Assembly: GCA_030690415.1 (NCBI GenBank)
Contig: JAUYGZ010000015.1
Span: 1 to 40,911, forward strand
Reading direction: 5' to 3'
DNA: 40,911 bases
DNA from: a bacterium
GTDB lineage: Bacteria; Patescibacteriota; Gracilibacteria; JAUYGZ01
The notes under the pieces are model-generated. The model was given only the letters and a program-made list of their open reading frames with translations. It was not told the origin of the DNA and searched no databases. Position numbers and translations under genes: made by a program. This document shows, piece by piece, positions 15,525 through 34,267 of this stretch (positions are counted from its first letter, which is position 1; every line of letters begins with the position of its first letter).

Positions 15525-18071
15525 ATGGAAGAAGAAAGTGATGATTTCGAATCACCCGATAAAGTTCCTCAACAGACTGATATCGGTGATCCAATAGAAC
15601 CCCCTGAAAATATATCCCCCCAACTCGAACCAATCAGTACTGAAGTTGGTCAGATGGTGACAGATGCTATGTCAAACGGCATGGATTCAGACCATTTCAT
15701 GGACATACTTGCTGAAAAAATAAAACACACAATAATCTCACCTGAGTTCGCGCTTCAGCATCTTGAGCGGAAAGAATTTCAGAGAGAATGGCTTAAAATA
15801 ATCAGAGAGGAAAAAACGGGAGACCTGTCAAACTGGTCTGAAAACTTTCGTGAATCGACACTTGTGCAAACAACACTCAGTGAAAAATTCGAACAATACG
15901 AGCAGGAGCACGACAAGGCCATGCACATGAAATTTTCTACCGAACTCAAAGAAGAAATAAGGCTGGGTAAAATCCCACCAGAGATGGCAGAAAAACATCT
16001 GGATGGAGAAGCCTTTCAGAAGGAGTACTTTGAACTGATCCTAAAGGAGGCAAGCCCCGAGTTGAAGGCAGAATTAGGTGAGCATGAGGATCTCGAAAAA
16101 TCATTATTCGGACATTCAAGCGTACAGGAATCACTTAGGGGGAAATTCAAGGATTATGAAAGAGCACATGACGAGGCCATGGAGAAAAAATTTACGGCCG
16201 AGCTAAAAGAAAAAATAGAGCAGGGCAAAATCCCACCAGAGATGGCAGAAAAACATCTGGAGGGAGAAGCCTTTCAGAAGGAGTACTTTGAACTGATCCT
16301 AAAGGAGGCAAGCCCCGAGCTGAAGGCAGAATTGGGAGAGCATGAGGATCTCAGAAAAAAACTCTCAGAAAACAGCCAAGTCAAAGACGCTCTTGGGAAG
16401 AAATTTAACGATTACGAAGAGTCACATGAGAAAAGCATGGAAACACGGTTTTCCATAGAATTATCAAAAAAAATCAACAAGAAAAAAATCTCGCCTGAGG
16501 ACATCAGGAAACACTTCAGCGAAGAACAATTTTCAAAACACATCTTCAAAATAGTTTTGACTGATATTTCACCCCTGCTCAAAGAAGAACTGAACGAGCA
16601 CCAGAATCTAAAAATGCACTTGTTTGAGGCCGAGCTAGTCAAAGGGGAGCTCTTGAAGAAATATGAAAATTATAAAACCGAACATGCGGCCTTTGAACAG
16701 AAAACCATAACAACCGGGCAGACAGAAATACGAGGACAACTCGCGATTAGTTCGGAAGACATCGACAATGACAACTTTCACAATAAAGAAGCATTCCGAA
16801 AGACCATGCTTACACGAATCATCATGGTCATAGAGAAAGCTCCAGAAGACCTTCGTGCACAGCTCTTGGCATATGCAGAAGATCAAATCGTGAAATCGCA
16901 CCAAATCTGGGAAAATCGCCATATGAACTACCACAAACAGGTCATTCGGGAGATGGAAGGAGAACTTGACCAGAAGTTGGTCCTTTCGGAAGAAGACATC
17001 AGGGACAACCGATTCCACGATCAGGGGAACTTCCGCGAACAAATGGGTTTTCGCTGCACCGAAGTCGTGAACAATCTTCCGGAAGATCTGAGAAGCCAGA
17101 CCATAGTCCTGATTGATAGGAAAATCGCGACACTCTATGAGCAGTGGCACATACAGCATGAAAACTTTCATAAAAACACTCTCAATAATGCCCAGGAAGA
17201 GGTGGACGAAGTACTCATCCTGAACCCAAACGACGAAGATGACGACCGCTTCCACGACAAAGGCACCTTCGAAAAGACCATGAGGCTACGCCTTTCATCG
17301 GTCATGGTCCAGGTCCCCGAAGACCTCAGGAGTGGGATTGAATCATATGCGAATACTCAAATCCGTAGCCTATACCAAGAATGGAAGAAGCGCCACGAGA
17401 GCTATCACGATAGAATACTCCGAAGCGCCAGGATTGAGCTGTCAAATGCTCTCGTCTTCAGGCGGGAGGACAAAGAAGATGACCGTTTTCACCACCAGGG
17501 AAAATTTCGTGAAGCCCTGCTCGAAAGAACAATCGAAATCATGGTCAAAGCGCCGGAAGATCTTCGAAACCAGCTGGAATTATCCACCGAGGAGAAAATC
17601 AGGGAACTCTATGATAAATGGCAGAAGGAGCACGAAACATACCATGTCAGGACTCTCCAGGAAGCACGTCGGGAAATCAGCAGAGAGCTCATACTAACAG
17701 CCCATGACAGGGAAAATGAGGATTTCGAAAACCAAAATCTCTTCAAACAACATATGCGGAACAGGGTAGCCGGAATTATGAACCGTCTTCCAGACGACCT
17801 GAAAAAAGACATGGATTTTTATCTGGAAGAGAAGCTCGAAGGACTCTATGAAGAATGGAGGCTCGAAAAATTCATTCTCTCTACCCGGGAACCAAGTCGA
17901 AAAATGGAGCCAAAGGAAAAGACTGAAAAAACCGTTGATCAACTGAGCTCTCTCTATGAGGCTGCAGCTTTGGTCCATGGGAAAGAAGCTCTGGACGGCT
18001 GCTTCATTGCCCGTCGCTCAGGCTCCTCAGGAGGGATCTCAAGGCACAGTTCAACCCCTTTCTTCTCATGA
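15525..18071 (+). CDS. Large unrecognised protein made of two families of tandem helical repeats
   Basis: I do not recognise this 848-residue protein. After an acidic N-terminus it contains about four 86-residue units (roughly residues 55-395) with the core GKIPPEMAEKHLxGEAFQKE, FELILKEASPELKAELGEHE and KFxDYExxHDEAME. Then come five 79-residue units (roughly 396-785) with the core DDRFHDQGxF, APEDLRxQL and LYxxWxxxHExYHxxxL. Both types look helical and strongly charged. No signal peptide or membrane helix is visible. Repeats 2 and 3 of the first kind are nearly identical in DNA as well. The next gene starts inside its stop (ATGA, 4-bp overlap), so the two proteins probably act together. A scaffold or structural role is only a guess. 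Confidence 0.7.
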   Translation: MEEESDDFESPDKVPQQTDIGDPIEPPENISPQLEPISTEVGQMVTDAMSNGMDSDHFMDILAEKIKHTIISPEFALQHLERKEFQREWLKIIREEKTGDLSNWSENFRESTLVQTTLSEKFEQYEQEHDKAMHMKFSTELKEEIRLGKIPPEMAEKHLDGEAFQKEYFELILKEASPELKAELGEHEDLEKSLFGHSSVQESLRGKFKDYERAHDEAMEKKFTAELKEKIEQGKIPPEMAEKHLEGEAFQKEYFELILKEASPELKAELGEHEDLRKKLSENSQVKDALGKKFNDYEESHEKSMETRFSIELSKKINKKKISPEDIRKHFSEEQFSKHIFKIVLTDISPLLKEELNEHQNLKMHLFEAELVKGELLKKYENYKTEHAAFEQKTITTGQTEIRGQLAISSEDIDNDNFHNKEAFRKTMLTRIIMVIEKAPEDLRAQLLAYAEDQIVKSHQIWENRHMNYHKQVIREMEGELDQKLVLSEEDIRDNRFHDQGNFREQMGFRCTEVVNNLPEDLRSQTIVLIDRKIATLYEQWHIQHENFHKNTLNNAQEEVDEVLILNPNDEDDDRFHDKGTFEKTMRLRLSSVMVQVPEDLRSGIESYANTQIRSLYQEWKKRHESYHDRILRSARIELSNALVFRREDKEDDRFHHQGKFREALLERTIEIMVKAPEDLRNQLELSTEEKIRELYDKWQKEHETYHVRTLQEARREISRELILTAHDRENEDFENQNLFKQHMRNRVAGIMNRLPDDLKKDMDFYLEEKLEGLYEEWRLEKFILSTREPSRKMEPKEKTEKTVDQLSSLYEAAALVHGKEALDGCFIARRSGSSGGISRHSSTPFFS
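15969..16319 (+). repeat. Near-identical 93-bp direct repeats within the repeat-protein gene
   Basis: Positions 15969-16061 and 16227-16319 (offset 258 bp, exactly 86 codons) differ at a single base, while the flanking parts of the same protein units have diverged. This patchy identity suggests recent gene conversion or unequal crossing-over. Confidence 0.88.
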
Positions 18072-19309
18072 TGACAGCAATGATCAACCCAAGTGATTTC
18101 AGGAAACTCAGCACGAGTCTTCAGGGAAGCGTCACACCCCCACATGAGATGCTTCAGACTCTCCTGGGCACACACCAGAGACAGCTCAGGGCCCTTCAGA
18201 TTAAACGTCTCTCTCCTGAGGTCTGGAAAGAATTTACAAGAGGGCTCAAAAGGATTCAGATAGTCCCTCAGAATCTCTTCACTAAAGTCAAACCAGGAGA
18301 ACAGGATGAGGGGGTCGGAGAGGAACCTGAGGAAACCGAGGTGGAAGTGACAACTAGCGAATTTGAAGAATCAAGCAGAGAAGAAGCTAAGCAGCCGACG
18401 GAAGAAAATTCAGACAATCAGATCGAATCAGAGGATCAGGGCCCAGAAGCATTGGAAAGCGAAACAGAAGAACCAGAACTCATCGCCGAAACTCAAGAAG
18501 CAGAGAACATTGAAGAGATTACGGGTGAGGATGAGGAAGTAGGCTTCCATGAAAAGGAAGAAGTCCCTGTAGAGCCCGAAACAGCTTATCAGGAAGAAGA
18601 AGAAGAAAATTTACTACTCGAGGAAACAGATCAGGAGGAGGAACAGGATTTTGAAATGAAAAGAAAGTCCGAGGGAGATCCTGAATCACAGATCATTGAA
18701 ACACTCCTAGCAAACTTCCGAGAACTCGAAATCATCGATGTACCGCATCAAATAAAGCCCGATCTGGACTGGCTCAGGGATGAGCTCAGCAAATATATCG
18801 TGATTGGGGCACGATTCCAACCAACAAAGCAATTCTCTAAGCCTGAGAAGGAAGCAGGTAAACAGACACCTTTTCCCGAAGTACCATCCGATGCAGAGGA
18901 GCGAGATTCTAGGACAAGAGAGCAGCTTCAGGATAATTCACAGCTTACTCGATTGGGAGACCTGCTGAATCAACTGATCAAGGTTATCCAAAAACCTCGG
19001 AAAAAACCGTTGGGAATCGAATTGAGCATCGAACAAGAGGTTCTCGACCAATTTATCACACACCCTGAAAAAATTCATCAGGAACTCCTCCAACACTACC
19101 TGGAATACGGCTATCGTAAAAAAGGCCTCCATCGATTGAGTTTTTCCGTGGAACGCCGGATTCAGACAGGGCTTGCCCTTATCTTCAGCATCCACGGAAA
19201 AGAACGAAATACTCTCTGTATGGCCACTATCTGGTGTGAATTGCAAGCAAGCACACAGGCTGCAGATTCTACAGAAAAGAAAAGAGCATCAGGATCTCTT
19301 TTCGCCTGA
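18068..19309 (+). CDS. Unrecognised protein with long acidic central region
   Basis: No family is recognised for this 413-residue protein. Residues 1-75 form a basic, helical N-terminal part (LQTLLGTHQRQLRALQIKRL). Residues about 78-205 are a low-complexity acidic linker dominated by E, Q and S. A conserved-looking C-terminal part from about 215 on contains helices and a stretch LSFSVERRIQTGLALIFSIHG resembling beta strands, with cysteines in LCMATIWCEL. There is no signal peptide or membrane segment. It overlaps the upstream repeat-protein gene by 4 bp and precedes ndk, which has its own -10 box. Confidence 0.65.
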   Translation: MMTAMINPSDFRKLSTSLQGSVTPPHEMLQTLLGTHQRQLRALQIKRLSPEVWKEFTRGLKRIQIVPQNLFTKVKPGEQDEGVGEEPEETEVEVTTSEFEESSREEAKQPTEENSDNQIESEDQGPEALESETEEPELIAETQEAENIEEITGEDEEVGFHEKEEVPVEPETAYQEEEEENLLLEETDQEEEQDFEMKRKSEGDPESQIIETLLANFRELEIIDVPHQIKPDLDWLRDELSKYIVIGARFQPTKQFSKPEKEAGKQTPFPEVPSDAEERDSRTREQLQDNSQLTRLGDLLNQLIKVIQKPRKKPLGIELSIEQEVLDQFITHPEKIHQELLQHYLEYGYRKKGLHRLSFSVERRIQTGLALIFSIHGKERNTLCMATIWCELQASTQAADSTEKKRASGSLFA

Positions 19310-30391: not shown

Positions 30392-30805
30392 TCATTGCCC
30401 TCCATCCTGCTCATCCAACCACTCCTGAAGAAAATGCTGCGCCGCCAGGGAATCCACATGACCCCGCTGTTCCCTGGCCTTCATCCCCATATCATGAAGC
30501 TTCTGAATGGCCATTTTCGAAGTATAACGTTCATCAATCATCTCGATCGGCAAATCAAAGCGATCCATAAGTTCATCATAAAAATCCATAAGCTCATCAT
30601 GAATAGTCCCGACTTCTCCTCGTTGGCGGTACGGCATACCGAGCAGGATTTGCTCAATCTGATCATGGAGAATGATTTTGCCCACATCCTCGTAAAGAAA
30701 ATCAGTATTCTTCAAAACTGCGCGAGCAAAGGCAATACCCGACTCTGTGGATCCAACAGCCGTACCGATTCGCTTCAGTCCGAAATCAAGTGCTAGAACA
30801 TTCAT
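30392..30805 (-). CDS. ruvX: RuvX/YqgF family RNase H-fold nuclease (putative Holliday junction resolvase / pre-16S rRNA nuclease)
   Basis: The 137-residue protein has the family landmarks: ALDFGLKRIGTAVG at the N-terminus with the first catalytic aspartate, ILLGMPYRQRGEVG, IEMIDERYTSKMA with the acidic E, and GHVDSLAAQHFLQEWL with the last aspartate. Family members process the 5' end of 16S rRNA or cut Holliday junctions. It lies 11 bp downstream of rplI. Confidence 0.93.
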   Translation of the reverse strand: MNVLALDFGLKRIGTAVGSTESGIAFARAVLKNTDFLYEDVGKIILHDQIEQILLGMPYRQRGEVGTIHDELMDFYDELMDRFDLPIEMIDERYTSKMAIQKLHDMGMKAREQRGHVDSLAAQHFLQEWLDEQDGGQ

Positions 30806-31369: not shown

Positions 31370-33538
31370 CTAGAAGGTGAAAATCCAGGAAAAGAGCTGA
31401 GAGAAACTAAAGGGTTCTTTGAGGTCATAATCCTCTTTCACATACCAATTGGGGAGATCCGTAAAGCGATCTGAGTGACTGCTGAGCTTCCCCAGCTGAA
31501 CATTCTTAACCGACTTCGCAACAAGGTAATAGTGTGTCGGATTGTAGAGGAAAACAGCAGGCGTGTCATGGGCAATTTCCTTTTTAAGACGATCAAGCAG
31601 TTCCTGCTTCGTTCGCTCATCGAAGGTCCTTCGAATATCAACCAGGAAATTATCAGATTCCAGACTTCTATAATTCGAAAGATTAAGCCCTGTCCCCGAT
31701 TGACTGGAGTGCCAGAATGGGAAAGCATCCAGATTGTAGCCTAAATTCTGTCCAAAGAGCAAGATATCATAATCACGATTTTTAATCTTTTCCTGAAGAT
31801 CCTGAAGAGAATAGGTCTCAATAATGACCTTCGCTCCTGCCTCCAACCACTGCTTTCGAACTAGCTCAGCCACACGAAGAAAACTCGCTGGCTCCTGTGC
31901 CGTCACCAAACGAAGAATCAGACGCTCACCATTGTCGTTAATTCGAACCTTATCCAGCTCTGCAACTTCTTCCCCACTCAACTCTGGCTGAACTTCTAAG
32001 GGAAGATCAGGTTTATCTTCCTCAGCAGGTACTGGCTCCTCCGACGGTTTTGGAGTATCGGAAACGGCTTCAGGAGTCGATGGCGGTGGGGGAAGTAAGG
32101 TTTCATCGACATATTGACTGATCGTTTGTCGATCAAAAACTATATTCCTGACGACCTGGCCAGCGCCACCCAAGGACTTCAGCTGAAGGCCATTCATTTC
32201 TACCTGCAGGCCAGCGGCATTCCCAACCGTGCGGAGCGTCAAAGCAGTCTTTGCAGAAAATTCCTTAGTCTTACCTGCACTCAAAAGGAAGGAAGTCTGA
32301 TCAACTCCATCAACAGCAAGGGAGATCCAGCTATCCTGAGACGCCGTTAAAATAAACTTCAGTTCCGTCGCGTCAGCAATGAGCTGATCAAGCTCGGGTC
32401 CACCTGTACTCTTGGGCTCTTCTTCCTGTTCTTTTCGCGACTCCACCTTGGAGGGGATATTCCACTCAGTGTCAAAAAAAGCGCCTCGGGCACGCTCAAG
32501 ACTAAATTCAATATCCAAATCGAGTTTTGACTCAAGGATCGAAGTATCCACTATCTCCACATCTCCTACCGCATCCCTGATCTCCTCTTTATCAGTCGCC
32601 AGAAGAAGAGCAAATCGAACCATACGATTATTCAAAATATCGGAATCCGTGTTCAGAAAAAGCGAACTGTACTGAGGAAGATGATACGGGAAAATATCAA
32701 AACGACTGGTGTCTCCGAAAACATCCTTGGGGTTCTTATCAGTGCTCAAACGAAAGCCGGTGAGCGTATTCTCAGCGAGTAAGAGAGAATCCTGATCATG
32801 AAATGAACGGAAAATAAGAGTCGTAATCTTCGTGTGGGTGCCATAGTACTGATCATTTCGCTGAAGGGTGACCTCATAAGTATCATTCTTAACCGTCCAG
32901 GTCGCGAATTTGTAGGGGCCAGTCCCCACAGGAGCCTGGTTAATCTCTGACTTGTCAAGATTATCGACAGGTATGAGCTCATAGAGGTGCTTAGGAAGAA
33001 GACCGATCGTCACATTCGCCAGGAAAAAGGAATATGGGTTATCGAGTTGAAACTGAACCGTCCGATCATCGATCTTTTTCACCGTCACATCCGAAAACAT
33101 CTGTCGCAAAGCGACATTGGGAAAGGCCTCATTCTGAATCACCGACTGATAAGTAAAGACCACATCGTCGGCGGAAACAGGCACCCCATTATGCCAGAAT
33201 GCGTCAGGCACAAGGGTAAAGGTATACGTCAGATTATCTTTCGACTTTTCACTGGTCGCGATATCGTCCTCGATGAGTCCGGTATGAGGATTGTAGCGGG
33301 TTAATCCACTAAAAATCACCTGACTGATATCTTTATCAACCGGGTTTCCCATGAGGAGAACGGGATTGAGAAGGAGTGGTCTGCCCACAAGACCCTCTGT
33401 ATAAATCCCCCCGTCCGCGGCAATCAGATTGGAATTATCGCGGATAAAGCGTCCATACAAATAGACACTCGTAGACACTACGATGGCCAGCAAGATCAGA
33501 ATGAGAACCTTCTCAAAAGTGGTGAATATTCGAAACAT
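31370..33538 (-). CDS. Membrane-anchored family 5 extracellular peptide-binding protein with inserted RodZ-C (DUF4115-like) domain
   Basis: An N-terminal helix (residues 10-28) without a lipobox anchors the protein. Residues 40-360 match the SBP_bac_5 fold (TYTFTLVPDAFWHNGVPVSADDVVFTYQ in two halves, PVGTGPYKF), and the fold resumes at about 535-700 (RLILRLVTAQEPASFLRVAELV, YDILLFGQNLGYNLDAFPFWHS). Between them, residues 393-472 (about 32123-32362) read like the C-terminal domain of RodZ: DSWISLAVDG, a TVGNAAGLQVEMNG segment and LGGAGQVVR. It is bordered by charged and proline-rich linkers. The 722-residue length, against about 550 usually, is explained by this insertion. No permease or ATPase genes are adjacent, so transport is not assured. 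Confidence 0.85.
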   Translation of the reverse strand: MFRIFTTFEKVLILILLAIVVSTSVYLYGRFIRDNSNLIAADGGIYTEGLVGRPLLLNPVLLMGNPVDKDISQVIFSGLTRYNPHTGLIEDDIATSEKSKDNLTYTFTLVPDAFWHNGVPVSADDVVFTYQSVIQNEAFPNVALRQMFSDVTVKKIDDRTVQFQLDNPYSFFLANVTIGLLPKHLYELIPVDNLDKSEINQAPVGTGPYKFATWTVKNDTYEVTLQRNDQYYGTHTKITTLIFRSFHDQDSLLLAENTLTGFRLSTDKNPKDVFGDTSRFDIFPYHLPQYSSLFLNTDSDILNNRMVRFALLLATDKEEIRDAVGDVEIVDTSILESKLDLDIEFSLERARGAFFDTEWNIPSKVESRKEQEEEPKSTGGPELDQLIADATELKFILTASQDSWISLAVDGVDQTSFLLSAGKTKEFSAKTALTLRTVGNAAGLQVEMNGLQLKSLGGAGQVVRNIVFDRQTISQYVDETLLPPPPSTPEAVSDTPKPSEEPVPAEEDKPDLPLEVQPELSGEEVAELDKVRINDNGERLILRLVTAQEPASFLRVAELVRKQWLEAGAKVIIETYSLQDLQEKIKNRDYDILLFGQNLGYNLDAFPFWHSSQSGTGLNLSNYRSLESDNFLVDIRRTFDERTKQELLDRLKKEIAHDTPAVFLYNPTHYYLVAKSVKNVQLGKLSSHSDRFTDLPNWYVKEDYDLKEPFSFSQLFSWIFTF

Positions 33539-33901: not shown

Positions 33902-34267
33902 TTATCGGATGAGCTTCTGGAAAAGATAGTTCAGGATTCCAAAAAGAAGAACAGCAACAACATAAGTCCATATGCCGTTAATCGTCAAGGTTACCCCTGA
34001 AATATCTAAAAAGGAAACGAATATCTGAGCCAGCCATAAAATCAAAGCATTGATCAAAATTATAAAAATCCCAACCGTAAGGAAGATAAGAGGGAGGGAA
34101 AGAACCTTTAAAATGGGTTTGACAAAAAGATTGAGCAGTCCAATACAAATACCCACCACAACAAATCCCATGGGACCACCAGTGACCACAAACTGATCTA
34201 ATAAATAGCTAACGAGATAAACGCTCGCAGTATTCAGGGCGATAAAGATGAGAAAGGCTCGAATCAT
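33902..34267 (-). CDS. Small four-helix membrane protein (phage holin 4_2 / PF04020-like)
   Basis: The 121-residue protein has four hydrophobic segments, with the family pattern GLLNLFVKPILKVLSLPLIFLTVGIFIILINALILWL (recognisable in NLFVKPILK and LPLIFLTVG). The family is widespread in bacterial chromosomes and was named for similarity to holins; no lytic function is shown. No phage genes are near, so it is more likely a housekeeping membrane protein. Confidence 0.82.
   Translation of the reverse strand: MIRAFLIFIALNTASVYLVSYLLDQFVVTGGPMGFVVVGICIGLLNLFVKPILKVLSLPLIFLTVGIFIILINALILWLAQIFVSFLDISGVTLTINGIWTYVVAVLLFGILNYLFQKLIR

Follow-up and report, generated by a model that had tools for sequence, protein, structure and literature searches.

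A RodZ C-terminal domain inserted in a secG-linked family-5 substrate-binding protein of Gracilibacteria

We analyzed a stretch of 40,911 nucleotides (the window; contig JAUYGZ010000015.1 of assembly GCA_030690415.1, from a gracilibacterial genome, G000) and found that it encodes a 722-aa protein which, on sequence grounds, is confirmed as a family-5 substrate-binding protein (SBP) with a genuine RodZ C-terminal domain (RodZ_C, PF13464, equal to DUF4115) inserted in its second lobe. The SBP_bac_5 family (PF00496) matched this protein in two stretches, with an E-value of 3.9e-52 and a score of 178 bits against a cut-off of 32.4, and the Pfam analysis detected SBP_bac_5 and RodZ_C but no other domains, HTH_25 being absent. 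The features of the protein and its neighborhood are the following.

31370..33538, minus strand: CDS of 722 aa, SBP_bac_5 protein with RodZ_C insert, probably membrane-anchored (ORF and Pfam)
33437..33520, minus strand: N-terminal hydrophobic helix, residues 7-34 (sequence and low-confidence model)
32561..33268, minus strand: first part of SBP_bac_5, residues 91-326 (Pfam)
31946..32440, minus strand: whole insert with linkers, residues 367-531 (comparison with insert-less orthologues)
32141..32350, minus strand: RodZ_C domain (PF13464), about residues 397-466 (Pfam, RodZ profile and model)
31424..31945, minus strand: second part of SBP_bac_5, residues 532-705, closest to Bacillus subtilis AppA (1xoc)
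31700..31753, minus strand: conserved motif GQNLGYNLDAFPFWHSSQ, residues 596-613, with the AppA counterpart GWSLSTFPDQYDIFHSSQ
31373..31423, minus strand: C-terminal tail, residues 706-722, aromatic, possibly an amphipathic helix
33548..33877, minus strand: secG, ending 9 bases before the SBP start codon (Pfam)
33902..34267, minus strand: small membrane protein of the PF04020 (Phage_holin_4_2) family, upstream, kept in L033
30817..31263, minus strand: ribosomal protein L9, downstream, also in L033 (Pfam)
30392..30805, minus strand: RuvX, downstream, also in L033 (Pfam)

The insert was identified with two profiles. Pfam placed RodZ_C at residues 397-465 (E-value 1e-11), scoring 39.9 bits when the whole protein was searched and 44.6 bits with just the insert, both above the curated cut-off of 23.9. 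An independent profile, for which 22 ordinary RodZ proteins of the phylum and the class were the sole input, gave 57.2 bits for the window protein and 43.0 and 39.5 bits for two further fusion proteins found among its relatives. By comparison, none of 1000 shuffled inserts exceeded 10.3 bits, and no other SBP of the class exceeded 5.7. The match ran beyond the short Pfam model through an LG-x-x-G-x-V-x-R-N stretch that is typical of Patescibacteria RodZ ends, and the other hallmarks of the domain, W, GNA, and NG, were also kept. The original prediction, which had recognized a DUF4115-like RodZ domain flanked by linkers within a peptide-binding protein, was thus correct in both respects: a charged linker of about 26 residues precedes RodZ_C, and a P/E-rich one of about 60 residues follows it. 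Upstream of the insert lies A-x-x-x-F-F-D-T-E-W (residues 349-359), and the SBP restarts at about residue 532 with R-x-N-x-x-G-E-x-L-x-L-R-L-V-T; insert-less orthologues have only some 20-37 residues across this point, and their SBP is continuous. Chance similarity was excluded by the profile scores, the shuffles, and the conservation in three genera, and an assembly artefact by the identical architecture, in one open frame, of the two other fusions (G001 and G003). A misreading of the Ig-like insert of other orthologues as RodZ_C was excluded as well, as the profile-profile comparison of the two gave no match.

When the insert was modelled alone, the prediction was an all-beta domain of eight strands (pLDDT 82, pTM 0.71, from two sequences only). 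For the periplasmic part of B. subtilis RodZ, a folded domain with nine strands, predicted from NMR data, is cited in the literature (PMC6946637). The fold search with the insert returned only weak CBM60-, MmpS5-, and SpyCatcher-like matches, CBM60 (Foldseek E 2.2e-3, VIA-align Z 6.0) being within the range of common arrangements, and no solved structure related to the insert by sequence was found. The full-length model, from two sequence rows and with a pLDDT of 36, was too poor for placing the insert. From knowledge of the family, we take the site to lie inside the second lobe and not between the two lobes, and its position relative to the cleft is presumed in the same way. The N-terminal hydrophobic helix of the original prediction was confirmed in the sequence and also appeared in the full-length model at low confidence, and no lipobox was visible in the N-terminal sequence. 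Its hydrophobicity and the N-termini of relatives, such as L090 with its long basic N-terminal extension, suggest that the helix is likely an uncleaved anchor with a cytoplasmic N-terminus. The aromatic C-terminal tail was present in all the insert-bearing class orthologues examined, and most insert-less ones were devoid of it (family f7 is an exception).

The survey of related genomes found the fusion in two of the three other genomes of the order, so that, with the window's genome, it is present in three genera; the fourth genome (G002, 88% complete, in 170 contigs) gave neither an SBP nor a secG match. Outside the order, no fusion was detected in the searched samples of 242 class and 286 phylum genomes. 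The three fusions formed one clade with 100% support in the SBP core tree, whose deep nodes were weak, and their inserts shared 36.8-51.2% identity. RodZ_C was above the cut-off in only 6 of the 242 class genomes, in three SBPs, two true RodZ proteins (G015 and G033; HTH_25, Glucodextran_B, RodZ_C), and one penicillin-binding protein (PBP), and the insert is the sole such match in the window's genome. At the phylum level, the profile search found the domain in 62 of 286 genomes, and the listed frames other than that of the window were 230-481 aa long, nearly all of them 308-360 aa, the size of an ordinary RodZ. In the domain tree (about 80 columns, for which weak support is expected), the SBP copies adjoined the class's own RodZ (L034, L036), which is suggestive, for so short a domain, of capture from a local RodZ. 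In the PBP, of class A and encoded in G005 (L035/L055, C6 around 130103-130288), RodZ_C lies between the transglycosylase and transpeptidase domains, and a Big_7 domain is also present.

As read from the alignments, the insertion site is a "port" that is filled differently by lineage. In the class alignment, the same point holds nothing (for example in L020, L022, L025, L026, L030, and L031), a roughly 90-residue Ig-like domain (many families, e.g., L007, L012, L013, L024, and L049), another beta-rich stretch (family f6), or RodZ_C. Over its full length, the Ig-like insert could be aligned with the Ig-like domain preceding RodZ_C in the true RodZ of G015, with an E-value of 2e-4 and a probability of 45% from small alignments; the assignment rests on 12 sequences in the profile comparison and, for the remaining inserts, on inspection by eye, and Pfam gave no match above the cut-off for these inserts. 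In the simplest reading, on which the tree does not decide, RodZ_C would have taken the place of an Ig-like insert. Outside the class, position comparison showed the peptidoglycan-binding domain PG_binding_1 at this point in 2 of 145 phylum genomes (G282 and G299; L089 and L092), whose SBPs likewise follow secG and have the same core, but differ from the window protein in the nature of the insert and in having no C-terminal tail.

The protein is also tied by position to secG, a linkage found across the class and the phylum that is new here and was missed by the earlier work on this DNA. The gene order on the minus strand is PF04020 protein, secG, SBP, ribosomal protein L9, and RuvX, and the G001 contig (L033, from a MAG titled 'Candidatus Gracilibacteria bacterium') has the PF04020 protein, SBP, L9, and RuvX in the same order, with secG 60 nt ahead of the SBP match. 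The SBP was directly downstream of secG in all 36 class genomes with both matches, with gaps of 25-144 nt between them, and at the same place a diverged frame of 711-742 aa occurs in three more genomes, in which TGA codes for an amino acid. Among the recoded genomes, the secG-linked SBPs of G023 and G012 (L048 and L054) have long C-terminal extensions and no HSSQ stretch. SBP_bac_5 was present in 132 of 145 phylum-sample genomes, as a single copy in 122; secG could also be located in 129 of them, and in 119 of these the two genes were linked; in some of the non-linked cases, the two genes lie on different contigs of fragmented assemblies. In the literature searched, mostly sources other than subscription journals and preprints, neither the pairing of secG with an SBP in Patescibacteria nor an SBP carrying RodZ_C was found described. 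In Nanosynbacter lyticus TM7x, secG (TM7x_02710) and a 'peptide transporter' (TM7x_02705) were both at higher levels during the first encounter with the host (PMC10768705); from the adjacent-looking tags, TM7x_02705 may be the same secG-linked SBP. The window's genome has in addition a second, very diverged SBP_bac_5 match (G000:C26:6839-7819; L086:797-3214), C-terminal in an 806-aa frame whose long N-terminal region has no Pfam match.

From the SBP fold, the anchor helix, the missing permease, the secG neighborhood, and the exchangeable envelope-type insert, we infer a function: the protein may be a Sec-linked, membrane-tethered binder of peptides or unfolded segments rather than one that feeds an ABC importer, with the insert docking it to the wall. 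This is the reading that we favor, tentatively, as its chances fall somewhat short of even. Outside the membrane and close to the Sec translocon, the two SBP lobes would hold peptides or stretches of unfolded polypeptide, acting like a holdase or a peptide receptor. The insert would be an interchangeable module that attaches this clamp to the cell wall or its enzymes; in this order, the docking would have passed to RodZ_C after, or without, MreB. The reading is supported by the identity and consistent fold of RodZ_C in a monophyletic fusion of three genera, by the secG adjacency in class and phylum together with the absence of a permease from 38 of 40 class relatives, by PG_binding_1 or Ig-like domains at the same site and RodZ_C inside the G005 PBP, and by the kept AppA-like HSSQ motif and the chaperone-like activity reported in vitro for the SBPs OppA, DppA, and MalE (PMC7442780). 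Several points count against it: adjacency is not proof of a joint function of secG and the SBP; linkers and inserts change rapidly in evolution and are missing from some orthologues, so that docking is not essential to the core function; Escherichia coli RodZ is described as largely able to do without its periplasmic domain for rod shape (PMC6946637); and the full-length model does not show where the insert lies. A wider form of the proposal, in which the core is a permease-free clamp or holdase of Patescibacteria at the translocon exit, tethered to the wall through an exchangeable module in one port, with RodZ_C, PG_binding_1, and the RodZ-type Ig domain as alternative tethers and RodZ ectodomain parts recycled in MreB-less lineages, is speculative and, in our judgment, unlikely to hold in full.

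The insert could instead be a neutral or stabilizing beta-sandwich spacer, shuffled onto a permissive surface loop and without any docking, in which case only the SBP core would matter. Several orthologues without any insert fit this explanation, and so do the unrelated contents that the site accepts, among them the charged, probably helical stretches of G361, G348, and G374, and the lower conservation of the insert (51% identity between G000 and G001, against 62-74% for the core). However, the fillings that can be named are all envelope modules (RodZ_C, PG_binding_1, and the RodZ-type Ig-like domain), and the hallmarks of RodZ_C have been retained, so that we regard a mere spacer as somewhat unlikely.

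With regard to the ligand, the best solved match to the C-terminal half of the SBP was B. subtilis AppA (1xoc, 2e-10), which was also among the best for the first half, and both proteins have an xDxYxxxHSSQ stretch; oligopeptide binding by the window SBP is putative. It differs from AppA and typical SBP_bac_5 proteins in its probable uncleaved anchor, the secG linkage, the RodZ_C insert in lobe II, and the C-terminal tail, and in lacking a permease in the genome. A further lead for the ligand, by analogy, may be E. coli MppA, a member of the same SBP_bac_5 family that binds the cell-wall (murein) tripeptide (PMC6022919), but is soluble in the periplasm and delivers to Opp. The AppA-like binding half and the conserved motif would also be expected of a scavenger or receptor that takes peptides from the host or the environment, either to hand them to a non-ABC importer or to set off a response. 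A surface protein that binds peptides would also fit a genome so small and presumably dependent on a host. Nevertheless, no import partner or signaling domain is present in the protein or next to it, and the recoded G012 and G023 have lost the motif yet keep the gene position, which makes this explanation improbable.

The original prediction had further proposed a tie to cell-wall or division machinery, or a putative sensor role. A wall or envelope role is favored because PG_binding_1 occupies this site in two further lineages of Patescibacteria, but a tie to the MreB machinery found no support. Of 40 relatives, just two, G015 and G033, have a genuine MreB (>400 bits; 468-471 bits in these), and no other family of the class sample has one; both have an ordinary RodZ and an SBP without insert; at L051 and L052, mreB, a PF04020-like membrane protein, secG, and the SBP lie in a row. 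The three fusion genomes have neither MreB nor an ordinary RodZ, and their matches to the MreB model, of 52 bits or less (51.9 bits in a 651-aa frame as the best in G000), fall in long frames of DnaK or FtsA/PilM size. Several families lack both MreB and the insert, so there is no strict replacement rule. A link of the fusion protein to MreB is unlikely because the window's genome has no MreB and no other RodZ_C. The architecture differs from that of Patescibacteria RodZ (HTH_25, TM, Glucodextran_B, RodZ_C; L034 and L036): the two share RodZ_C, including the LG-x-x-G-x-V-x-R-N tail, and one membrane helix, but the window protein has no HTH_25 and no MreB partner, and its RodZ_C is internal and fused to an SBP. 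Although the insert is homologous to the RodZ ectodomain and nearest to the class's own RodZ, and mreB stands just upstream of secG-SBP where it exists, a tie to the MreB/Rod elongation complex or the divisome is very improbable, as the MreB-bearing genomes are those with insert-less SBPs. A putative link to PBPs or to FtsZ-type division is possible.

The earlier observation that no transporter genes lie beside the SBP was extended to the whole genome: a genome-wide profile search found no BPD_transp_1 permease (PF00528) in G000, and it was missing from 38 of 40 class relatives, with the same search positive in 14 of 14 controls. A component of an ABC importer would be expected to have a cognate permease in the genome, and none was detected here. 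SBP_bac_5 proteins usually partner Opp/Dpp permeases, and an ordinary peptide ABC importer with its permease elsewhere or too diverged to detect would agree with this, but given these searches, and the complete Dpp-type operon of G035, which stands apart with its own SBP, it is hardly credible.

A single-copy gene beside secG across a huge group of ultrasmall bacteria, from a family always read as an importer, may point to an undescribed envelope function; if this is true, models of the nutrition of these organisms are led astray by the automatic label 'peptide ABC transporter substrate-binding protein'. The fusion is, moreover, a natural experiment on the RodZ ectodomain without MreB, a poorly understood point.

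Other coding regions were also recorded. Positions 279-2967 of the window encode a DUF4012 protein followed directly by a FemAB-family protein, and 15525-18071 and 18068-19309 are large ORFs (848 and 413 aa) with overlapping ends and no Pfam match. Elsewhere in the window's genome, an open frame of 10041 aa encodes a giant protein (G000:C18:13905; L002).
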